Positions 1,589 to 37,049 of a stretch of 64,000 nucleotides of DNA are shown piece by piece. The position numbers and the translations under genes are program-made. The stretch is from contig NZ_CP124747.1 in NCBI RefSeq assembly GCF_041860085.1, positions 3,906,001 through 3,970,000 on the forward strand. The letters are read 5' to 3'. The stretch's first letter is position 1, and the number at the start of each line of letters is the position of its first letter. A model generated the notes under the pieces. It did not search any database and had not been told where the DNA came from. It was given only the letters and a program-made list of their open reading frames with translations. The DNA is from Schlesneria sp. DSM 10557. Its GTDB lineage: Bacteria; Planctomycetota; Planctomycetia; Planctomycetales; Planctomycetaceae.

Positions 1589-4500
1589 CTACTGCGTAAC
1601 GGACGGCTCTTTCCTTTCCCGCAGGCTCCACCATGCGGATTTCGGTAACATTCCAATCCCGATGATCACCAGGTTAAAGAGAATGAATAGCCCGAGGTTG
1701 CGGATCGTTCCCTGCTTGAATCCATAGGAATGCAGACCCGCTCCCAATGCGTTGACGCCCCACCATGACCAGCTCACAAAGATGTTGCCGGCAACGGCAA
1801 GCACCGCCAGACCACGTTCCTTCACCATCCCGCCCCAGCGAGCGTGCAGAGCGATCGCATTCCACAGCACGATGATCAGAGCGGCATTTTCTTTGGGATC
1901 CCATCCCCAGAAGCGTCCCCACGAGTCATCGGCCCAGAGACCTCCGAGCACCGTACCAACGAAACTGAAGAAGATCGAGAAGCACAGCGTTCCGTAGATC
2001 ATCCGGTGAATGTCGCGGCCTTCTTTGGCTGACAGCGACGGTGTGCAGACACCGCGAATGATGTAGGCAATCGCGAAAAGCCCCGCCAGATACGTCGTCG
2101 CATAGCCAAGTGTGATACAGGTCACGTGCGTTGCAAGCCAGAACTGCGTATCGAGCACCGCCTGCAACACAGTAAACGTATCACCGTCGGAAGCAAGACC
2201 GTCTGCAATCAACAATGTCGCGTACCCGGCCGCGGCAGCGACGAGATTACCAATCCCGATACGGTAGATCAGTTCGAAGATCAGCCCCATCACAACGCAT
2301 CCCCAGCCGATGAAGACGGCCGAAGAATAGAGATTGGTCACAGGCGGCCGACCCGAAATAATCAGTCGAGCAACGATGGCCGCAGTGTGCACCACCAGCG
2401 TCACCAGCAGTACATAGAAGGCAGCCCGGTTAAAGCCTCGTGGCCAGAACAACCAGCCGAGTGCGCTCAGCACGAACGCCAAAATGTAGATTCGACTGGC
2501 GTGCGTGAATGGCTGAGCGTAATTGAAGTACGACTCCAGTCGAATGATCGAAGGATTCACGTCGCTGGGACGGTCCTTCGACACCAGTTCGAGCACCCGA
2601 TCCACAGCCTGATTGAACATGGCTGGCTTCTCATCGGAATACGCTTTAAGAACCTGCTCCCAGGCGGCGACCACCTGATCTTCTTCACCGTTCTTTTTCA
2701 TCCGATTAGGAATATCGAGCAACCAGGCGCGCGACAGAATATGCCAATTGTCCTCGGCATCCTTCGGCCAGACAGAAAACACGGGCTGACCTTCTTCTTC
2801 CAGTGCCTCTGCAAACTGGCTGACCATCTGGAATGACCTGAGGACTTCCTGCTGTGTTTCACCACGAATGCGGTGCTGCAGCCCGAATGCAAATACCAGG
2901 TTATCAAACGTGGAAACCTTCTCAGCCAGTTCCAGGATCTTCTTCTGGTAGACGCTGATCTCTTTGCGTTCCTTGGCCTGGCTTCGAGCCAGCCGGACCT
3001 GCTTTTCAAACTCTTCGCCGTTCTTGCGAATGTCGCTGCGAGAGTACCGCATGCCTTCGCGTTTCTTGACACCAATCGTTTCCTGGACTTCCAGATTCTC
3101 GACACGGAAGATCTCGCGCTCATCGGCGACCTTGGCTTCCGAGATGACTTCCAGCAGCCATTGAATGGCGGGAATTCGTTGCTTGGCACCTTCCTCACCG
3201 ACGGTCACACGGGTTCGCCCCGAAATTGCCAGCAGCGCAGACGTCGCAGCCGTATCGAGCGGCTTCGTACGCCCCTCTGACAACACAGGGATCTGCCCGA
3301 ACCGATACAAATCCATCGAAAGTGTTTTTGGCTTCGGCGGTGCAGCCACGCTGCCGAAATAGGTGATTGCGCAGATTGCCAGAGCAGAAGCAAACAACCA
3401 CGACGCCCATTCTTTCGGTGCATCCGCCTCAGGACTTTCCGGCTGAGCGGAAACGGGAAGCGTCGGTTTCATCCCCAGCTTGCTGGCCAGCCGCGCTGCT
3501 CGCTCAGCCTCTTCCGCAGACAAGTTGACCGATTCACCTCGGGTGAGGAAGTTGATCAGCAATGTCATGAAATGGGTCAGCATTCCGATTCCGACGAGCA
3601 TGCAGCCGACGTAGGGCATCATCCAGCCCGTATTGGCCACCACCGAGAGAGTGGCATGCTCAATGCCCGAACTTGGCTCGCGGAAGTAACCACTCTGATA
3701 GAAGGTCTCATCCGCAAACCGCAGAGGATTGTTCATCCAGATCGTTTTGACCTCGTCCACGTTGCGATCTGAATCCTGGATATGGACGGTTGATGCGTAG
3801 CTGCGGGGCGTATTGGTGCCGAGGTAGTCTTTCTTGCTGACGTCCTTGAGCTCGAAGACGTAGCTTTTGTAGTAGCGTTTGGGACGAAGAGCGATCTGGT
3901 AAACCTTATCCCCGACGCGGACCTCATCGACTTCATCACTCATCGACAACGTCCAACTGACCAGATAGGTCCCCAGCGGTGTTCCGTCCGCCTTCGATTC
4001 CAGGGTCACGTACGCGGCGGGCGAATCGACTTTGCTGTCACTATCGGTTCCGGTGCTTGCCCTGATTTCGTCAGCCATCCAGACCAGCCCCGCGCCGGCC
4101 GTGGCGGGGTTTTTGTCCTTGGACGTGACACCACGAATCCTCGCGTTTTTCAGATATCCTGACACGGTCATCCGGAACGGCAAATCGGGGTGGTCGATTG
4201 GCTTGGTGTCCAGAACAAGTGATTTCGGAATCGCGATGACCTTATCCGCTTGCGGATCGGTGACATCGCTGACGGCAAGTTCGATCGTACGAATATCGTG
4301 TACGTAGTTTGTCCGCTCCCCTTCAACCAGATTCATCTGGGTTTCAACGGCCGTCAGTGCCACGTGCAATTCGTAGAACATCATGAGACCGATACCGCCA
4401 TGCAGCAGCACGATCCCGGCCCGTTTGCCGAAGACCGCCCAGCAGCCCCCGAGCAGAGCCAGCGACGCAACGGTCCCCTGAGTCAATTGCCACAGAATTC

Positions 4501-5224
4501 GGAGCGATGCATCCGTCGGCCGCCCTGCTTGACCGCGTGAAATGAACCAGAACATCAGCACCAGCAGGCCGATTCCCGTCCCCCCTGTCGTGACACGCAG
4601 GAACATCTGGCGACTCCAGACATCGCTGGCTTTTGACAACGGTTGTTGAAGCAGCATCCAGAATCCAAATCCCGCCGCGATCGCGGCCAGGCCCAGGAAC
4701 CCCTGATACCCGATCCATTGCGTCGAGTAAGGAACTAAAGGCTCACCCTGGATACCTCGGGAATTTCCACCGGCCGCGACGATCGCCCAGGTAACCAGAC
4801 AACCCAGCGCGATACTGACCAGCCCTGCAAACAGCCGCTGCCCCCGGGCGACGGCTTTGAACCGCACCAGATGTGCGGAAAGCAAGTTGACGGCCAACAG
4901 CAGACCGAGCAACTTTCCGCCGGGGAAGTAGATTCCGCCAGGAACAATCCAGGGATCTTCCGAAAAGAAGGACGCGGGGAAAAAGACCTGAAACGGCACC
5001 CAGGCAAACCAGCACCGGAAGTAAAGTCCGATGACTTCCCAGATATCCATGTCAACCTGAGCGAACGTCCCCGCCAGGATGAGAAAAATGGATAAAGCGA
5101 ACAGCACGACCGTCAACTTCAATGACGCCGCAGGCTCCAGAACCGTTTTGATTCCACGCCACAGCGTACTGCCAGTTGCTACCGAGCTCGATTTTTCACC
5201 GGTCAGCGTTCCATCTGTTGCCAT
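1589..5224 (-). CDS. ccsA: Fused ResB-CcsA cytochrome c biogenesis protein
   Basis: A 1211-residue polytopic membrane protein. The N-terminal half (about residues 20-590) is ResB-like: early membrane helices, a large extracytoplasmic domain and another helix near 560-585. The C-terminal third is CcsA-like, with multiple helices and the tryptophan-rich heme-handling signature WGRFWGWDPKENAA, followed by conserved histidines in the final helices. In System II cytochrome c maturation ResB/CcsB and CcsA form the heme exporter and synthase that attaches heme to CxxCH apocytochromes. Fusion into one chain is known from epsilonproteobacteria, Bacteroidetes and Planctomycetes. A charged linker of about 300 residues between the halves is periplasm-like. 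GAGGTG precedes the ATG. The lipoprotein gene upstream on the same strand may be cotranscribed. Confidence 0.93.
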   Translation of the reverse strand: MATDGTLTGEKSSSVATGSTLWRGIKTVLEPAASLKLTVVLFALSIFLILAGTFAQVDMDIWEVIGLYFRCWFAWVPFQVFFPASFFSEDPWIVPGGIYFPGGKLLGLLLAVNLLSAHLVRFKAVARGQRLFAGLVSIALGCLVTWAIVAAGGNSRGIQGEPLVPYSTQWIGYQGFLGLAAIAAGFGFWMLLQQPLSKASDVWSRQMFLRVTTGGTGIGLLVLMFWFISRGQAGRPTDASLRILWQLTQGTVASLALLGGCWAVFGKRAGIVLLHGGIGLMMFYELHVALTAVETQMNLVEGERTNYVHDIRTIELAVSDVTDPQADKVIAIPKSLVLDTKPIDHPDLPFRMTVSGYLKNARIRGVTSKDKNPATAGAGLVWMADEIRASTGTDSDSKVDSPAAYVTLESKADGTPLGTYLVSWTLSMSDEVDEVRVGDKVYQIALRPKRYYKSYVFELKDVSKKDYLGTNTPRSYASTVHIQDSDRNVDEVKTIWMNNPLRFADETFYQSGYFREPSSGIEHATLSVVANTGWMMPYVGCMLVGIGMLTHFMTLLINFLTRGESVNLSAEEAERAARLASKLGMKPTLPVSAQPESPEADAPKEWASWLFASALAICAITYFGSVAAPPKPKTLSMDLYRFGQIPVLSEGRTKPLDTAATSALLAISGRTRVTVGEEGAKQRIPAIQWLLEVISEAKVADEREIFRVENLEVQETIGVKKREGMRYSRSDIRKNGEEFEKQVRLARSQAKERKEISVYQKKILELAEKVSTFDNLVFAFGLQHRIRGETQQEVLRSFQMVSQFAEALEEEGQPVFSVWPKDAEDNWHILSRAWLLDIPNRMKKNGEEDQVVAAWEQVLKAYSDEKPAMFNQAVDRVLELVSKDRPSDVNPSIIRLESYFNYAQPFTHASRIYILAFVLSALGWLFWPRGFNRAAFYVLLVTLVVHTAAIVARLIISGRPPVTNLYSSAVFIGWGCVVMGLIFELIYRIGIGNLVAAAAGYATLLIADGLASDGDTFTVLQAVLDTQFWLATHVTCITLGYATTYLAGLFAIAYIIRGVCTPSLSAKEGRDIHRMIYGTLCFSIFFSFVGTVLGGLWADDSWGRFWGWDPKENAALIIVLWNAIALHARWGGMVKERGLAVLAVAGNIFVSWSWWGVNALGAGLHSYGFKQGTIRNLGLFILFNLVIIGIGMLPKSAWWSLRERKEPSVTQ

Positions 5225-5377
5225 TAAACACCTCGCCGTCAGCTACAGGACCATCTCGATCGAAGTCCGCAGTTAGTTATTGCAGTCACTCGTTTCGAGG
5301 TTTTCGAAACGAGCGTTAATCACAACTTGAGTCCACTTACCGCTGCGTCATTGCCCCGGCCCCGCAGACCAGAGGCT

Positions 5378-6430
5378 TCACGATCCACTTTTCAAATTGA
5401 GAGACTTCAGGAATTCCTCGAATTGAATCCGTTCCCGTTCGACGAGCGGTGCATCACCCATCAGCTTGATGAACCACATCTGTCCCTGCTCTTCGACGAT
5501 TACACCGAAAATCGACCGGTCCCCCTCGGTCATCTCGTACAGGCTTCCTTTGAGCCCCCCGACGCTTACCTGACGTGCTGATTGCGCCAGCTCCTCTTCT
5601 GTCAGCGGCCCCAGCCCAACCTGACCACGCCACCGGTTCACATTCAGCAGCGGATTTCCACCCGCACGCGTGACTGTCACCGAGGCCTTCTGCTCGCCAT
5701 CGGCAACCTGCAGCGAGACGACCGCAAACGCTGCAGGAGGTCCTTCAGTCCATCCTTCGGGTTTGTCGAACGGAAGCGACGGCTTGTCAGCCCCCCCTTC
5801 CGTGGCCGCGGGTTGGTTACGTGCCGTCTGGGCAGGAGGCAGACTCATACTCGCCGGCTTTGGTTGCGGGCGACCGACGATGTTGAGCCAGTAAGCGACT
5901 CCATCGCCGACGGGCAGCTTTTCGGCCTGCTGATCCAGATCCTCACTCTCAATCGGAGGAAGCGATAACTGGCCTCGCCAGCGGTTGATATTCATGACCA
6001 CCTGGTCTGTCACTGGAAGATCCTGCCGGGAAGCAAATTTCGTCACCGACATCTCGATCGGTGGTTCTCCGCTCAGCAGAATCGTCGCATGTCGCATCTC
6101 GTTCCCGGGCTGCTGGCGCCAACCTTCGGGAAGGGTCCACTGCAGATCGTCGGCAGGCCCGAACTTTAATCCCTTGAAGAACTCTCGAAGCTCGCTCTCC
6201 CGTGCCGCAATCGCGTCCATGTTTCCCTGCAGTTTGAAGAACCACAGCAGAGAGCTTCGCGGAATGACGAGACCAATCATCCGCTCGGGCTTGGGATGCG
6301 TCCGCTCATACTCTGCGAGAAACTCGGACGATTGCAGGGTTTCATGTTTGGGAACCGTATACTCCGAGATCGTCTCTGACTGTTCGCAACCTGTCAGAAA
6401 CAGAAAGCTCAGGGCACAGATGCCCACCAT
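5378..6430 (-). CDS. Lipoprotein with duplicated domain, function unknown
   Basis: About 350 residues. The N-terminus MVGICALSFLFLTGC is a lipoprotein signal with an LTGC lipobox, so the start is placed at 6430 (GGAG just upstream) rather than at an earlier in-frame codon that would add 59 residues ahead of the signal. The mature protein holds two copies of one module of about 120 residues. Each copy has a segment like P-E-G-W, an N-x-N-R-W-R-G-Q motif (NINRWRGQ and NVNRWRGQ), a run WFFKLQG or WFIKLMG, and a helix ending EFFKGLKFG or EFLKSLNLK. I do not recognise a named function. It lies 150 bp upstream of the ResB-CcsA gene in the same direction, which suggests but does not prove a role in respiration or cytochrome maturation. 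Confidence 0.8.
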   Translation of the reverse strand: MVGICALSFLFLTGCEQSETISEYTVPKHETLQSSEFLAEYERTHPKPERMIGLVIPRSSLLWFFKLQGNMDAIAARESELREFFKGLKFGPADDLQWTLPEGWRQQPGNEMRHATILLSGEPPIEMSVTKFASRQDLPVTDQVVMNINRWRGQLSLPPIESEDLDQQAEKLPVGDGVAYWLNIVGRPQPKPASMSLPPAQTARNQPAATEGGADKPSLPFDKPEGWTEGPPAAFAVVSLQVADGEQKASVTVTRAGGNPLLNVNRWRGQVGLGPLTEEELAQSARQVSVGGLKGSLYEMTEGDRSIFGVIVEEQGQMWFIKLMGDAPLVERERIQFEEFLKSLNLKSGS

Positions 6431-32657: not shown

Positions 32658-34658
32658 ATGTCCAAGCATGCCCCCCCTTCCTCAACTGGCCCCGCCTCCG
32701 TTGAAACACGACGACGGATGGAAGAGTGCATCGATCATCTGGCCGAACTGGCACGGGGAGAAATCGATGGGGGCCAGTTCATCGCCGAAGTCCTGACGAG
32801 ACTCACCGAGGTGACGCACTCCTTGCGTACTCGATGCTGGAGGAAGTCATCACAGAATCAATGGGAAGTCGCTGGGGAACGCCCCCAACCGACGACTGTG
32901 ACGAAGCCTTCCAGCGATGACGAAGCACAACTCAATCAAACTGCGGAGTCGCGTCAGCTTTCGACACACGCATCGGCGGTCAGCGGTGAGACGACGACGC
33001 AGACCGCGGTGCGGACTTGCTGCCCTGTCGTTTATGGGGGACAGACCGTCGCGGTGCTGGACGTGCTTCACGCAGCGGAAACCGAGGACGGTCGTACAAC
33101 CGATCTGGCACCGTTTCTCCATGCGATTGCCGAAATCACCGCAGACTTTCTTTCTCAGCTTGAACTGAGGCAATTGAGACGGGCTCGCAGTGAGTGGCAG
33201 CAGTGGGATCAGCTCAACCTGAATCTGATGAAGTCGCACGATCTTCCTGCACTTGCCGCAACGATCGTCAACGACGGTCGGATTGTCGCCGGGTGTGACA
33301 GGCTGACGCTGATGCGCCGACGGGGCTCACGGTATATCGCCGTCGCCGTTTCTGGAGCCGACCGAATCGAACCCCGGGCCAACACGGTTCACTCACTGGA
33401 AGCCGTAGCATCCATCGCAGCCCGAAATGGCCATGCCATTTGGTTTCACCTGGCATCCGCCGACGCCAACACGCCTGACGCACTCGCTCAGCACGCGAAG
33501 CTGACAAGAGCCCACTCCGTCGGGCTGATCCCGATCCCCGGCCAGAGTTCCCGCACAGAAGCCTCAGTGAACTCGCCCTCCCCCTCTTCCCGTTATCGGC
33601 CCGACGCGATTCTGGTGGTCGAACAGTTTGACAATGTGGCAGATTCTGCAACGTGGCAGTCACGCGGAGAACACTTGGCGAACCGGCTTGAACCGACGCT
33701 GCTCGCAACACTGGAGCAAGAGTCCATTCCCTTCGCGAGGACGCTGCGGACATTACAGCGGTTGCCCGAATGGCTGCGACGCCCCGGTCCCCTCATGGCA
33801 CTGCTCGCACTCTTGGTAGCAGTTGGTTTCCTCACGTTCTATCCGGCCGAGTTTACGGTGACCGGTCCGGCCGAGCTGGTTCCCGTCAACCGCCGCGAAG
33901 TCTTCGCCAGCAGTTCCGGCATTATTGAAAAGCTGCTCGTATCGCACGGGGAAGAAGTCACTGCTGAACAGCCCTTAGTTGTCTTGCACGATCCGCAGCT
34001 TGCCCTGGAACTTCCACGGGTGATGGGCGAAATCGAAGTTGTGCGCGAGCGTTTGAAAGGTGTCCTCGCCGCGAGGCTTTCGGGAGGGGCCACTGCCGAC
34101 GCTGCCAACCGGGCCCGCCAGCTTGCCTCCGAGGAAGAAGAGCTCAAAGAACGGCAACAGTCACTGATCCGGCAAAAGGAACTGATCGAGCGACAACAGG
34201 AAGCACTCACCCTGCGAAGCCCCATCCGCGGACGGATTCTGACCTGGGATGTCGCCACAACACTCGCAGCCCGCCCTGTGGAACGTGGACAGGCACTGCT
34301 GACCGTGGGAGAGACTGACGGCCCCTGGATGATCGAGATGCGCGTCGCTGACAAGGAGTTTGGACACATTCGACGGGCACAATCACAGCTTGGCCCGAAT
34401 CTGGCGGTCCATTTTCTGCTCCCCTCAGACCCCACCCAGACACGCCGTGGCGCCATTCGCGACGTCGCGGGAACGACTCAGTGGGATGAACAACATGGCA
34501 GCTACGTCCTGGTGACCATCGACGTTGAGCCAGGTCAGGTATCGCAACCCCGTTCCGGCATGACTGCAGTGCCTCGTATCCTGTGTGGAAAGTATCCGAT
34601 TGGGTACGTCTGGCTACACGATCTGATTGATACCGTCCGCCTGAGGTGGATGCTGTAA
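32658..34658 (+). CDS. GAF-domain protein fused to HlyD-like membrane adaptor
   Basis: 666 residues. The N-terminal 350 contain a GAF-like sensory region (cytoplasmic). A membrane helix follows near 378-400 (LMALLALLVAVGFLTFYP), then a biotinyl-lipoyl half-motif (GPAELVPVNRREVFASSSGIIEKLLVSHGEEV), a long coiled-coil hairpin of Glu/Gln/Arg (EEEELKERQQ) and the returning lipoyl half (LRSPIRGRILTW) and beta-barrel (EMRVADKEFGHI). This is the membrane-fusion (periplasmic adaptor) plan. Such planctomycete proteins usually sit beside an M50-type peptidase or second adaptor; none is seen here. The next gene, the EutB-EutC fusion, starts 108 bp downstream. Confidence 0.88.
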   Translation: MSKHAPPSSTGPASVETRRRMEECIDHLAELARGEIDGGQFIAEVLTRLTEVTHSLRTRCWRKSSQNQWEVAGERPQPTTVTKPSSDDEAQLNQTAESRQLSTHASAVSGETTTQTAVRTCCPVVYGGQTVAVLDVLHAAETEDGRTTDLAPFLHAIAEITADFLSQLELRQLRRARSEWQQWDQLNLNLMKSHDLPALAATIVNDGRIVAGCDRLTLMRRRGSRYIAVAVSGADRIEPRANTVHSLEAVASIAARNGHAIWFHLASADANTPDALAQHAKLTRAHSVGLIPIPGQSSRTEASVNSPSPSSRYRPDAILVVEQFDNVADSATWQSRGEHLANRLEPTLLATLEQESIPFARTLRTLQRLPEWLRRPGPLMALLALLVAVGFLTFYPAEFTVTGPAELVPVNRREVFASSSGIIEKLLVSHGEEVTAEQPLVVLHDPQLALELPRVMGEIEVVRERLKGVLAARLSGGATADAANRARQLASEEEELKERQQSLIRQKELIERQQEALTLRSPIRGRILTWDVATTLAARPVERGQALLTVGETDGPWMIEMRVADKEFGHIRRAQSQLGPNLAVHFLLPSDPTQTRRGAIRDVAGTTQWDEQHGSYVLVTIDVEPGQVSQPRSGMTAVPRILCGKYPIGYVWLHDLIDTVRLRWML

Positions 34659-34766
34659 CCAGTCCGTTCGTGCATCCGAAACGGGCCAAAACGAGATAGC
34701 CGTCGGCGGCCCCTGTCGGATATGCTGAGGGCGTTCAAACTCGTAGACACAATCGTGGAAGAGACC

Positions 34767-37049
34767 ATGCTGAATCGACGTCGATTTCTAGCCGCCCTCT
34801 CTGTGCCGATGCTGATGGGAACCGAGTGGAACACCCGCCGCGCCTGGGCCAACCCACAGGTCCACGGTGTCGAGGTGGAAGCTCCCGTCGGTCAGGAAGA
34901 TCTGTTTGCCTATATCCAGCGGCAGAATGGTCGCTTCGACACCGACCTCTACAGGAAACTCCTGGGTGCCGCGAACGAGTTCAAAGAAGGGGACGCCATC
35001 GTTGGTGTCGCCGCTGCCAACGAGCCCTCGCGAGCCCATGCACGGCAACTGCTGGCCAACACGCGGATCGCTGATCTTCTGGCGAACCCACCCTGGCGCG
35101 ACCGTCTCCTGGTCTGGAACGACACGTTCATCAATCGGGACCGCCTGCGAGACTGGGAACAGCGGACCGTGGGTGAGCTGAAGGATCACCTGCTTGCGTC
35201 CAGTGCGGCCGACATCCATCAACTGATGCCGGGACTATCGAGCGACCTGATCGCGTGTCTGGTGCGGCTGATGTCGAACGCCGAACTGATCCGAATCGGC
35301 CAGACGGTGTTTAACCCTCTCGCGGGATCTCATCTGGGTGATCAAGGGTATCTGGGAGCCCGAATCCAGCCCAACTCGCCCACGGATCACGTTGACGACA
35401 TCCGTTTTCAGGTATTCGACGCATTTGCTTACGCCGTGGGGGACGTGCTGCTGGGGACCAACCCCGTCTCGAGCGACCCTCAATCCGTCGCCGCCGTCGA
35501 GCTCGCTCTCCAAGACATCCTGAAAACATTCGAGTTGGATCACATCATCCCCCACTGCGTCCTGTCACACATCGACGTGCAGGTGGAAGTGGAACAGCTT
35601 CATCCCGGCTCAACGGAATTCTGGTTTCAAAGTATCGCAGGCAACGATCAGGCCAACGCGACATTCGACATCAGCGTGGAGAAGATGGCCCGCTATGCAG
35701 CAGAGCGGACCGGCCCCTTCGGGCTCTACCTGGAAACCGGCCAGGGGGCTGATTTCACGAATGGACATGGCCACGGATGTGACATGGTCCTGCATGAGTC
35801 ACGCAAGTACGGGTTCGCACGCGGAATGTCGCACACGATTGCTGCGGCGAAGAACATCCCCCCCGAACAGGCATGGCTGCACCTGAACGACGTCGCCGGC
35901 TTTATTGGCCCCGAAGTCTTCCGAACGCGCGAGCAACTCGTTCGGTGCTGCCTCGAAGACATCGCCATGGGGAAACTGCATGGGCTCATGATCGGGCTCG
36001 ATGTCTGTTCGACGCTGCATATGGAGGTCTCTCTGGATGATCTCGACTGGTGCTTGGAGCAAATTGCCCCCGCCAACCCCGGATACCTGATGGCGCTTCC
36101 GACCAAGATCGACCCCATGCTCGGGTATCTCACCACGGGCTATCAGGACCATGTCCGGCTGCGTGAGAAGTTCGGCTACCGCGTCGATGATCGAATGTGG
36201 TCCTTCTTCAAGAAATTAGGCGTCATCGACGATCAGGGGAAGCCGACAGAGCACTTTGGCGACCCTCATTGGGTCTATCTGCAGTACCGGCGATGCAAAC
36301 AGGACCCGCGAACCGATCAGCAGATTCTTGCCGAGTCGGCACAAATCGTGACGGAAGTTCGACAGCGCGGCGTCTTTATCGCGGAAGGCTATGGTCGGCG
36401 TCCGTCGGAACTGGCACCTCAGCTTCGCTCCGAAATTCAGACCGTCTATGAAGATGCCAAGAAGTGCATCTGGAAAGAATGGGACCCGGATTTCATCAAA
36501 CGGATTCCGAACGCCCTGCCCCTGACGACACGTTCGTCGGACAGAAACGACTACATTCTGCATCCCACCACGGGTGAGCACCTTTCTGATGAATCGTTGA
36601 TCAAAGTCCAGGAGGTCCGGACTCGGGATCAGGGAAAGTCCGACACAGCGCTGGTGATCTCGGAAGGCTTGAATGCCTATGCCATGCTCGACGACGGGAA
36701 CCTGCTGCCATTGCTGGACGCCCTTTATCCCCTGCTGGAAAAATCTGGCTACCACGTCGCGTCAGCACCCTTCGTCGTGAACAGCGGCAGGGTTCGCGCG
36801 GGATACCGCATCGGTGAAATCCTGTTCGGCGGGCTCACGGGTTCACGCACGATTGTCCATCTGATCGGCGAACGCCCTGGCACGGGTCACCACACGATGT
36901 CGGCCTATCTCACCACAGCAGACGGAGCGACATGGAGATCCCCGAACAAAGTGGATCACAACATCACGAAAGTCGTATCGGGAATCGGGGTGACCGCACT
37001 CACCCCCGATCGAGCAGCGCAAGCCATTATTGCCGCCCTGTCCCGTTAG
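34767..37049 (+). CDS. eutBC: Ethanolamine ammonia-lyase EutB-EutC fusion with Tat signal
   Basis: 760 residues. The N-terminus MLNRRRFLAALSVPMLMG is a twin-arginine signal (R-R-x-F-L), with a likely cleavage at AWA near residue 28. Residues about 50-460 match EutB: VGVAAANEPSRAHARQLL, GSHLGDQGYLGARIQPNSPTD (split here; the Arg/Gln substrate and cobalamin contacts), LGTNPVS, YLETGQGADF with the key Glu, IGLDVCSTLHM with the key Asp, and VRQRGVFIAEG. Residues about 590-755 match the C-terminal part of EutC: RSSDRNDYILHP, VISEGLNAYA, LIGERPGTGHH and SAYLTT. The enzyme uses adenosylcobalamin to turn ethanolamine into acetaldehyde and ammonia. EutC's N-terminal arm and its CISNIR-like end are shortened or changed (VDHNITKV). 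No eut neighbours are visible. Confidence 0.9.
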   Translation: MLNRRRFLAALSVPMLMGTEWNTRRAWANPQVHGVEVEAPVGQEDLFAYIQRQNGRFDTDLYRKLLGAANEFKEGDAIVGVAAANEPSRAHARQLLANTRIADLLANPPWRDRLLVWNDTFINRDRLRDWEQRTVGELKDHLLASSAADIHQLMPGLSSDLIACLVRLMSNAELIRIGQTVFNPLAGSHLGDQGYLGARIQPNSPTDHVDDIRFQVFDAFAYAVGDVLLGTNPVSSDPQSVAAVELALQDILKTFELDHIIPHCVLSHIDVQVEVEQLHPGSTEFWFQSIAGNDQANATFDISVEKMARYAAERTGPFGLYLETGQGADFTNGHGHGCDMVLHESRKYGFARGMSHTIAAAKNIPPEQAWLHLNDVAGFIGPEVFRTREQLVRCCLEDIAMGKLHGLMIGLDVCSTLHMEVSLDDLDWCLEQIAPANPGYLMALPTKIDPMLGYLTTGYQDHVRLREKFGYRVDDRMWSFFKKLGVIDDQGKPTEHFGDPHWVYLQYRRCKQDPRTDQQILAESAQIVTEVRQRGVFIAEGYGRRPSELAPQLRSEIQTVYEDAKKCIWKEWDPDFIKRIPNALPLTTRSSDRNDYILHPTTGEHLSDESLIKVQEVRTRDQGKSDTALVISEGLNAYAMLDDGNLLPLLDALYPLLEKSGYHVASAPFVVNSGRVRAGYRIGEILFGGLTGSRTIVHLIGERPGTGHHTMSAYLTTADGATWRSPNKVDHNITKVVSGIGVTALTPDRAAQAIIAALSR

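Follow-up and report, generated by a model that had tools for sequence, protein, structure and literature searches.

The window, a 64,000-nucleotide stretch of Schlesneria sp. DSM 10557, contains a gene in which the EutB and EutC parts of ethanolamine ammonia-lyase (EAL) are fused in one chain behind a twin-arginine (Tat) type signal. Comparison of the sequences collected supports the recurrence of this combination, a fused chain with a Tat-type signal and kept catalytic residues, in several planctomycete families and in rhizobia. The product is probably an adenosylcobalamin (AdoCbl)-dependent lyase of ethanolamine, or of a close amino alcohol, that is exported by Tat in the folded state as a single chain and acts outside the cytoplasm. 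The fusion, the conservation of the signal, the kept active-site residues and the presence of TatC and adenosyltransferase genes can be read directly from the genomes. The features of the gene in the window are as follows.

34755..34766, plus strand: possible ribosome-binding stretch GTGGAAGAGACC directly 5' of the ATG at 34767 (sequence reading)
34767..37049, plus strand: fused, putatively exported EutBC gene, 760 aa
34767..34856, plus strand: putative Tat signal region MLNRRRFLAALSVPMLMGTEWNTRRAWANP, with AWA as possible cleavage site (sequence; twin arginines and hydrophobic core conserved)
34950..36251, plus strand: EutB domain, residues 62–495 (Pfam PF06751, E 1.8e-128; NCBIfam NF011649)
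36252..36416, plus strand: interval separating the Pfam matches to EutB and EutC, residues 496–550 (gap)
36417..37040, plus strand: EutC domain, residues 551–758 (Pfam PF05985, E 3.3e-30)

The fused frame and its N-terminus

The EutBC frame runs from the ATG at 34767 to the stop codon at 37047–37049 and encodes 760 residues with no internal stops. The longest open reading frame at this location opens earlier, at an ATG at 34722. The start at 34767 is preferred because most of the homologues begin with M-x-x-RR and because a purine-rich stretch lies upstream of it. The PF06751 match spans positions 6–434 of the 435 in the profile, and the EutB part scores 565 bits against NF011649, just above the curated cut-off of 554. 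PF05985 is matched at 105.6 bits (cut-off 25.8), with positions 26–221 of its 235 covered. Against the NCBIfam equivalog NF003971 the EutC part scores 79.3 bits, far under the cut-off of 230, which is too low to call it an EutC equivalog. Among solved structures, those closest to the window protein are the EutB and EutC chains of ethanolamine ammonia-lyase (2qez, 3abo, 3any). Rather than the two subunits by which this enzyme is recognized, a single open frame carries both parts in the window. The window genome has no second match to the fused protein at E ≤ 0.001. A structure prediction made from four sequences (mean pLDDT 51.8, pTM 0.35) was set aside.

An earlier, sequence-only reading of this DNA had proposed EutB and EutC in one chain, and the PF06751 and PF05985 searches confirm it. 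Its description of EutB as nearly complete also stands. The EutC portion had been described as a C-terminal part, which is too little, as most of the EutC domain is present; the match at 551–758 continues past residue 590, beyond which a lack of EutC similarity would have spoken against the fusion.

The N-terminus of the window protein, MLNRRRFLAALSVPMLMG...AWANP, is plausibly a Tat signal, and the twin-arginine motif, hydrophobic core and AWA that had been pointed out there are all present. A Tat-type signal was found in 95 of the 97 distinct loci with complete N-termini, the window included, with four of the 95 (L101, L124, L133 and L140) scored by eye; many of the 97 are near-copies, and these figures count loci rather than independent events. 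The first set has 75 loci, the window and four rhizobial ones among them; RRx[FLAMI] followed by a hydrophobic core is present in 70, or 69 distinct loci given that L003 and L011 are one contig. L101 has twin arginines by eye, though it falls outside this anchor pattern. Contig ends truncate L060 and L095 of the first set. L018 and L019, from other planctomycete families, have no signal and start straight at EutB. The second set, drawn from four further families of the class, f2, f5, f106 and f110, has twin arginines in 24 out of 24 loci, L124 and L133 being counted by eye as RRxC. Of four family matches with a late-starting alignment, L140 (G398) has a signal by eye, MHRRRFLESSLAALCAG..., and L141–L143, where the contig ends before the N-terminus, are outside the 97.

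None of the 14 control EutB loci (L020–L033) has such an N-terminus; RR strings do occur in the 5' frame of two of them, ahead of the probable start. Shuffling the N-termini puts RRx[FL] within residues 1–20 in 2.9% of trials (401/14000). Base differences in the signal region, counted as pairwise sums at codon positions 1/2/3, are 139/36/353 in genus g3 (8 loci, 22 codons) and 212/137/356 in genus g1 (7 loci, 32 codons). The conservation across loci, the rarity of the motif in shuffles and the third-position bias together indicate that the signal is a real, conserved and translated feature. The AxA site is AWA in the window, and several members of genus g3 have no clear AxA. The concern that all homologues might start after residue 30 without a signal can be put aside in view of the 95 loci, and the same N-terminus, for which a search in other planctomycetes had been suggested, occurs in several of their families and also in rhizobia.

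Active-site residues, distribution and phylogeny

Residues R160, Q162, N193, E287 and D362 (E. coli EutB numbering), which we take to be the substrate contacts, are all found in the window protein and do not vary among the 21 aligned clade sequences from planctomycetes and rhizobia, two of which are from one contig. The two residues that had been named as kept, Glu in YLETGQG and Asp in GLDVCST, indeed align with E. coli EutB E287 and D362. S247, F258, V326 and L402 are likewise invariant in the clade. Among the columns that are invariant in these 21 sequences, 88 of 150 aligned with EutB and 25 of 47 aligned with EutC are identical to E. coli. A passage of PMC4413051 places Glu287 in contact with the coenzyme ribose, and the title of a cited reference names arginine 160 as critical.

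Other positions differ from the E. coli protein. E257 is replaced by T in planctomycetes and by I in rhizobia, where M392 is also replaced by I. The end of EutC reads RVVSGI..TAL.P..AA in the window, versus CISNIHQGGTPPVEAA in E. coli. This change had been noted correctly in the sequence-only reading, where it was taken as a possible pointer to another substrate. The changed end is common to the aligned relatives, with small variations, and is on this alignment a mark of the clade. Since the presumed substrate contacts are invariant in the clade, it is by itself no argument for another substrate.

With sampling centred on the window's own phylum, 31 of the 392 genomes in the phylum sample have a match at E ≤ 0.001, and in 16 of these it is the close fused form; one contig scan gave three loci. 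At E ≤ 1e-100 the fused EAL is found in 70 of 170 genomes of the family of the window genome, and 80 of 397 genomes of the class match. Among plasmid records, a protein search found 148 with a match, and the best 20 are Sinorhizobium and Pararhizobium megaplasmids with 50–53% identity across 94–100% of the protein. Below the Sinorhizobium records identity is about 27–35%, and the named places there are ordinary ethanolamine ammonia-lyase genes. The rhizobial signal is read from four of the plasmid records (H1, H2, H3 and H18), which have ...LSRRELL, LSRRDLL or LTRRDLL and then a hydrophobic stretch. In S. meliloti ml56 the fused gene is on pSymA and is annotated only as EutB. Recognition of the fused form would sharpen the database names, the S. 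meliloti gene being called simply EutB where it is named (H18–H20).

The plasmid of Sinorhizobium sp. BG8 (L051) has a conventional EutB at 561051–562349 beside the exported-type fused form, and a TonB-dependent receptor is located approximately 2.5 kb downstream of its fused gene. In S. fredii SMH12 (L052) the fused gene is broken, with a first frame of 255 residues and the remainder in another frame.

A tree of 51 rows, a subset of the sequences collected, was made by a quick method with support by SH-aLRT only. It contains 36 fused-family sequences (31 planctomycete Tat forms, 2 signal-less forms and 3 rhizobial forms) and 15 others. The fused family is one side of a very long branch (SH-aLRT 100); conventional EutBs and another fusion branch (L021 and L022) are on the opposite side. 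As a group, the planctomycete Tat forms have only 66% support. The signal-less L018 and L019 cluster together (SH-aLRT 96), therefore one loss of the signal, or an ancestral lack of it, is sufficient to account for both. Deep placement is unsure because long branches meet in the tree. L020 (G321) was considered as a distant fusion and rejected, having a stop inside the matched stretch with EutB and EutC as separate open reading frames; it places among the separate EutBs.

Genomic context and cobalamin genes

Ten neighbours of the fused gene, between 25862 and 41550 of the window, were scanned. These are a kinase, a pyridine-nucleotide oxidoreductase, a DUF6384 protein, a short-chain dehydrogenase, a thioredoxin, an HlyD-like protein, a CxxCxxCC protein, a GT9 glycosyltransferase, a POT transporter and one gene without a match; no ethanolamine genes are among them. 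No pathway partner is kept across genera in the neighbourhoods compared. The HlyD-like-domain protein (666 aa, 32658–34658, same strand) ends approximately 0.1 kb upstream of the EAL start and has no homologue in the 17 other neighbourhoods compared, all of them from genera other than the window's. In genus g3 the fused gene is near DUF1501, PSD1 and IclR genes, as found by Pfam scan in L035, and some or all of the same BLAST clusters are present around it in L036, L037, L040 and L043. In G257 a PSD1 gene adjoins the fused gene, with DUF1501 beyond. The PSD1/DUF1501 pair is common in planctomycetes, and its vicinity may reflect no more than this commonness. The fused EAL of L034 (G216, a planctomycete) adjoins a gene at 3576–6056 whose product combines M66 peptidase, StcE beta-sandwich and TagA domains. 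The rhizobial neighbours differ again. There are no Rfam matches, and therefore no cobalamin riboswitch, in the window, L050, L051 or L053.

A Eut microcompartment cargo enzyme is recognized by a eut locus with shell genes; the ten neighbours include neither shell genes nor EutA. This agrees with the earlier statement that no EutA is nearby, and EutA is absent from all 16 genomes with a close fused gene. Of the 31 genomes that match EutB or EutC at all, G061 and G081 alone have an EutA that passes the cut-off, and G105 has a weak match under it; EutA is missing too from most genomes with separate EutB and EutC. The absence of shell genes had also been reported, which is correct for the ten neighbours and not for the genome. 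Shell proteins (PF00936) are encoded in 16 of 16 genomes with a close fused gene, and in the window genome they are found only near 320 kb and 3624 kb, the fused gene being at 3941 kb and thus about 316 kb or farther away. We infer that these belong to the planctomycete fucose/rhamnose compartment outlined in PMC4207490.

TatC and a PF01923 cobalamin adenosyltransferase are each encoded in 16 of 16 tested genomes with a close fused gene. As specific support the co-occurrence of the adenosyltransferase was discarded, as it is found in 156 of 170 genomes of the family, compared with 70 of 170 for the fused EAL. Methylmalonyl-CoA mutase is present in 3 of the 16 genomes. All nine tested genomes of genus g3 are without this mutase, yet the adenosyltransferase is kept, a pattern that is weakly supportive. 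Their PF01923 protein is of a kind with clearly lower scores, 111–125 bits, versus 196–214 bits for the remaining genera examined. A class II ribonucleotide reductase (TIGR02504) passes the cut-off in 8 of the 16 genomes, including the window's own. In genus g3 it is above the cut-off of 400 bits in two of nine genomes and scores 367–377 bits in the other seven; the score in G274 is 159. The idea that the fused EAL is the sole user of AdoCbl in genus g3 was rejected on account of this near-cut-off reductase. There may be other AdoCbl users in these genomes, with class II ribonucleotide reductase among the candidates, and it is only a suggestion that the fused lyase is a main one in genus g3.

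Proposed function and known systems

In ethanolamine ammonia-lyase, cobalamin sits between the two subunits. We infer the loading of the cofactor before export, the translocation, the substrate and the physiological role as follows. The fused chain would fold in the cytoplasm, where its EutB and EutC halves would probably enclose cobalamin, and Tat would move the folded holoenzyme across the inner membrane. Outside the cytoplasm, ethanolamine, for example from phospholipid turnover, would be converted to acetaldehyde and ammonia. Because there is one chain, a single Tat signal would export both halves 1:1, holding the cofactor between them; with separate subunits, each would have to carry a signal, or one would have to be exported piggy-back on the other. 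Export would also put acetaldehyde formation outside the cytosol without a shell. Microcompartments are thought to keep acetaldehyde from the cytoplasm, one advantage among those listed in PMC5821096, and export could bring the same separation.

Several points speak against an exported lyase. There is no EutA reactivase, and renewal of AdoCbl outside the cytosol would be hard. L018 and L019 have no signal, the EutC score is low, and the position of E257 is changed, as is that of M392 in rhizobia. The possible other AdoCbl users, the lack of a neighbour kept across genera and the lack of a cobalamin riboswitch at the loci scanned also count against it. The long branch between the clade and classical EutB, the changes at E257 and the EutC end, the EutC score under the equivalog cut-off and the lack of ethanolamine genes among the scanned neighbours would suit an exported protein of the same fold that binds cobalamin or acts on another vicinal amino alcohol. 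This is rather unlikely, as the five presumed contacts and many barrel residues are invariant in the 21 planctomycete and rhizobial sequences, and such residues would be superfluous in a mere binding protein.

It is less likely still that the enzyme is cytosolic or on the inner face of the membrane, with an N-terminus that is a remnant of a targeting or anchoring segment or is used as one in some other way. The signal-less relatives L018 and L019 illustrate that the fusion does not need a signal, and the g3 signals without a clear AxA site would fit such a location. However, twin arginines and a hydrophobic core are retained across two phyla in nearly all of the loci with complete N-termini, and the codon-position pattern in the signal region is one of constraint. 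An artefact, in which two genes were joined by a sequencing or assembly error or the start is wrong, has next to no probability. It has no direct support, although the broken copy of S. fredii SMH12 illustrates that errors or decay occur in single records, and the same open fused frame recurs in dozens of further genomes, many of which are single-contig.

The preferred reading is that of an exported, fused lyase. The fused chain, the Tat-type signal and the catalytic residues of the original proposal stand and are conserved; the novelty of the fusion does not, as discussed below. We lean slightly towards the broader view that these are conserved AdoCbl radical enzymes of planctomycetes and symbiotic rhizobia that may be loaded with B12 inside the cell and exported by Tat, with the periplasm replacing the microcompartment. 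If this is true, the passage of a holoenzyme bearing coenzyme B12 through Tat, its survival without a reactivase and the periplasm as a stand-in for a microcompartment become testable questions. To our knowledge, the locations so far assigned to AdoCbl-dependent radical enzymes are the cytosol, microcompartments and mitochondria.

The fusion of EutB and EutC is already known; no report of an exported ethanolamine ammonia-lyase was found in the open-licence literature searched. The window protein has both domains and the presumed substrate contacts in common with E. coli EutB/EutC (3abo, 2qez, 3any). It differs from these in being one far diverged chain with a Tat-type signal, in having no surrounding eut operon and no EutA in the genome, and in the changed EutC end and E257. 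L021 and L022 (G081 and G061) are also fused EutBC proteins, with approximately 30% identity to the window protein, but have no signal, have EutA in the genome and are on a separate branch of the tree. Where E. coli has D362 these two have A, followed by P at 363, which suggests that their active site is changed.

In Pelobacter carbinolicus, as described in PMC3543383, the large and small subunits are likewise fused (Pcar_0491 and Pcar_0467) and there is no eutA gene. This precedent removes the novelty of the single chain as a fusion. The likeness to the window is one of description only, in which the P. carbinolicus proteins are presented without an export signal and, unlike the window gene, their genes are in a cluster with cobalamin-synthesis and transport genes. 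A precedent for B12 enzymes with Tat signals is provided by the reductive dehalogenases, which are introduced in PMC4771760 as corrinoid enzymes with such signals. These differ from the window protein in belonging to another family, in having Fe-S clusters and in performing reductive chemistry rather than an AdoCbl radical elimination.
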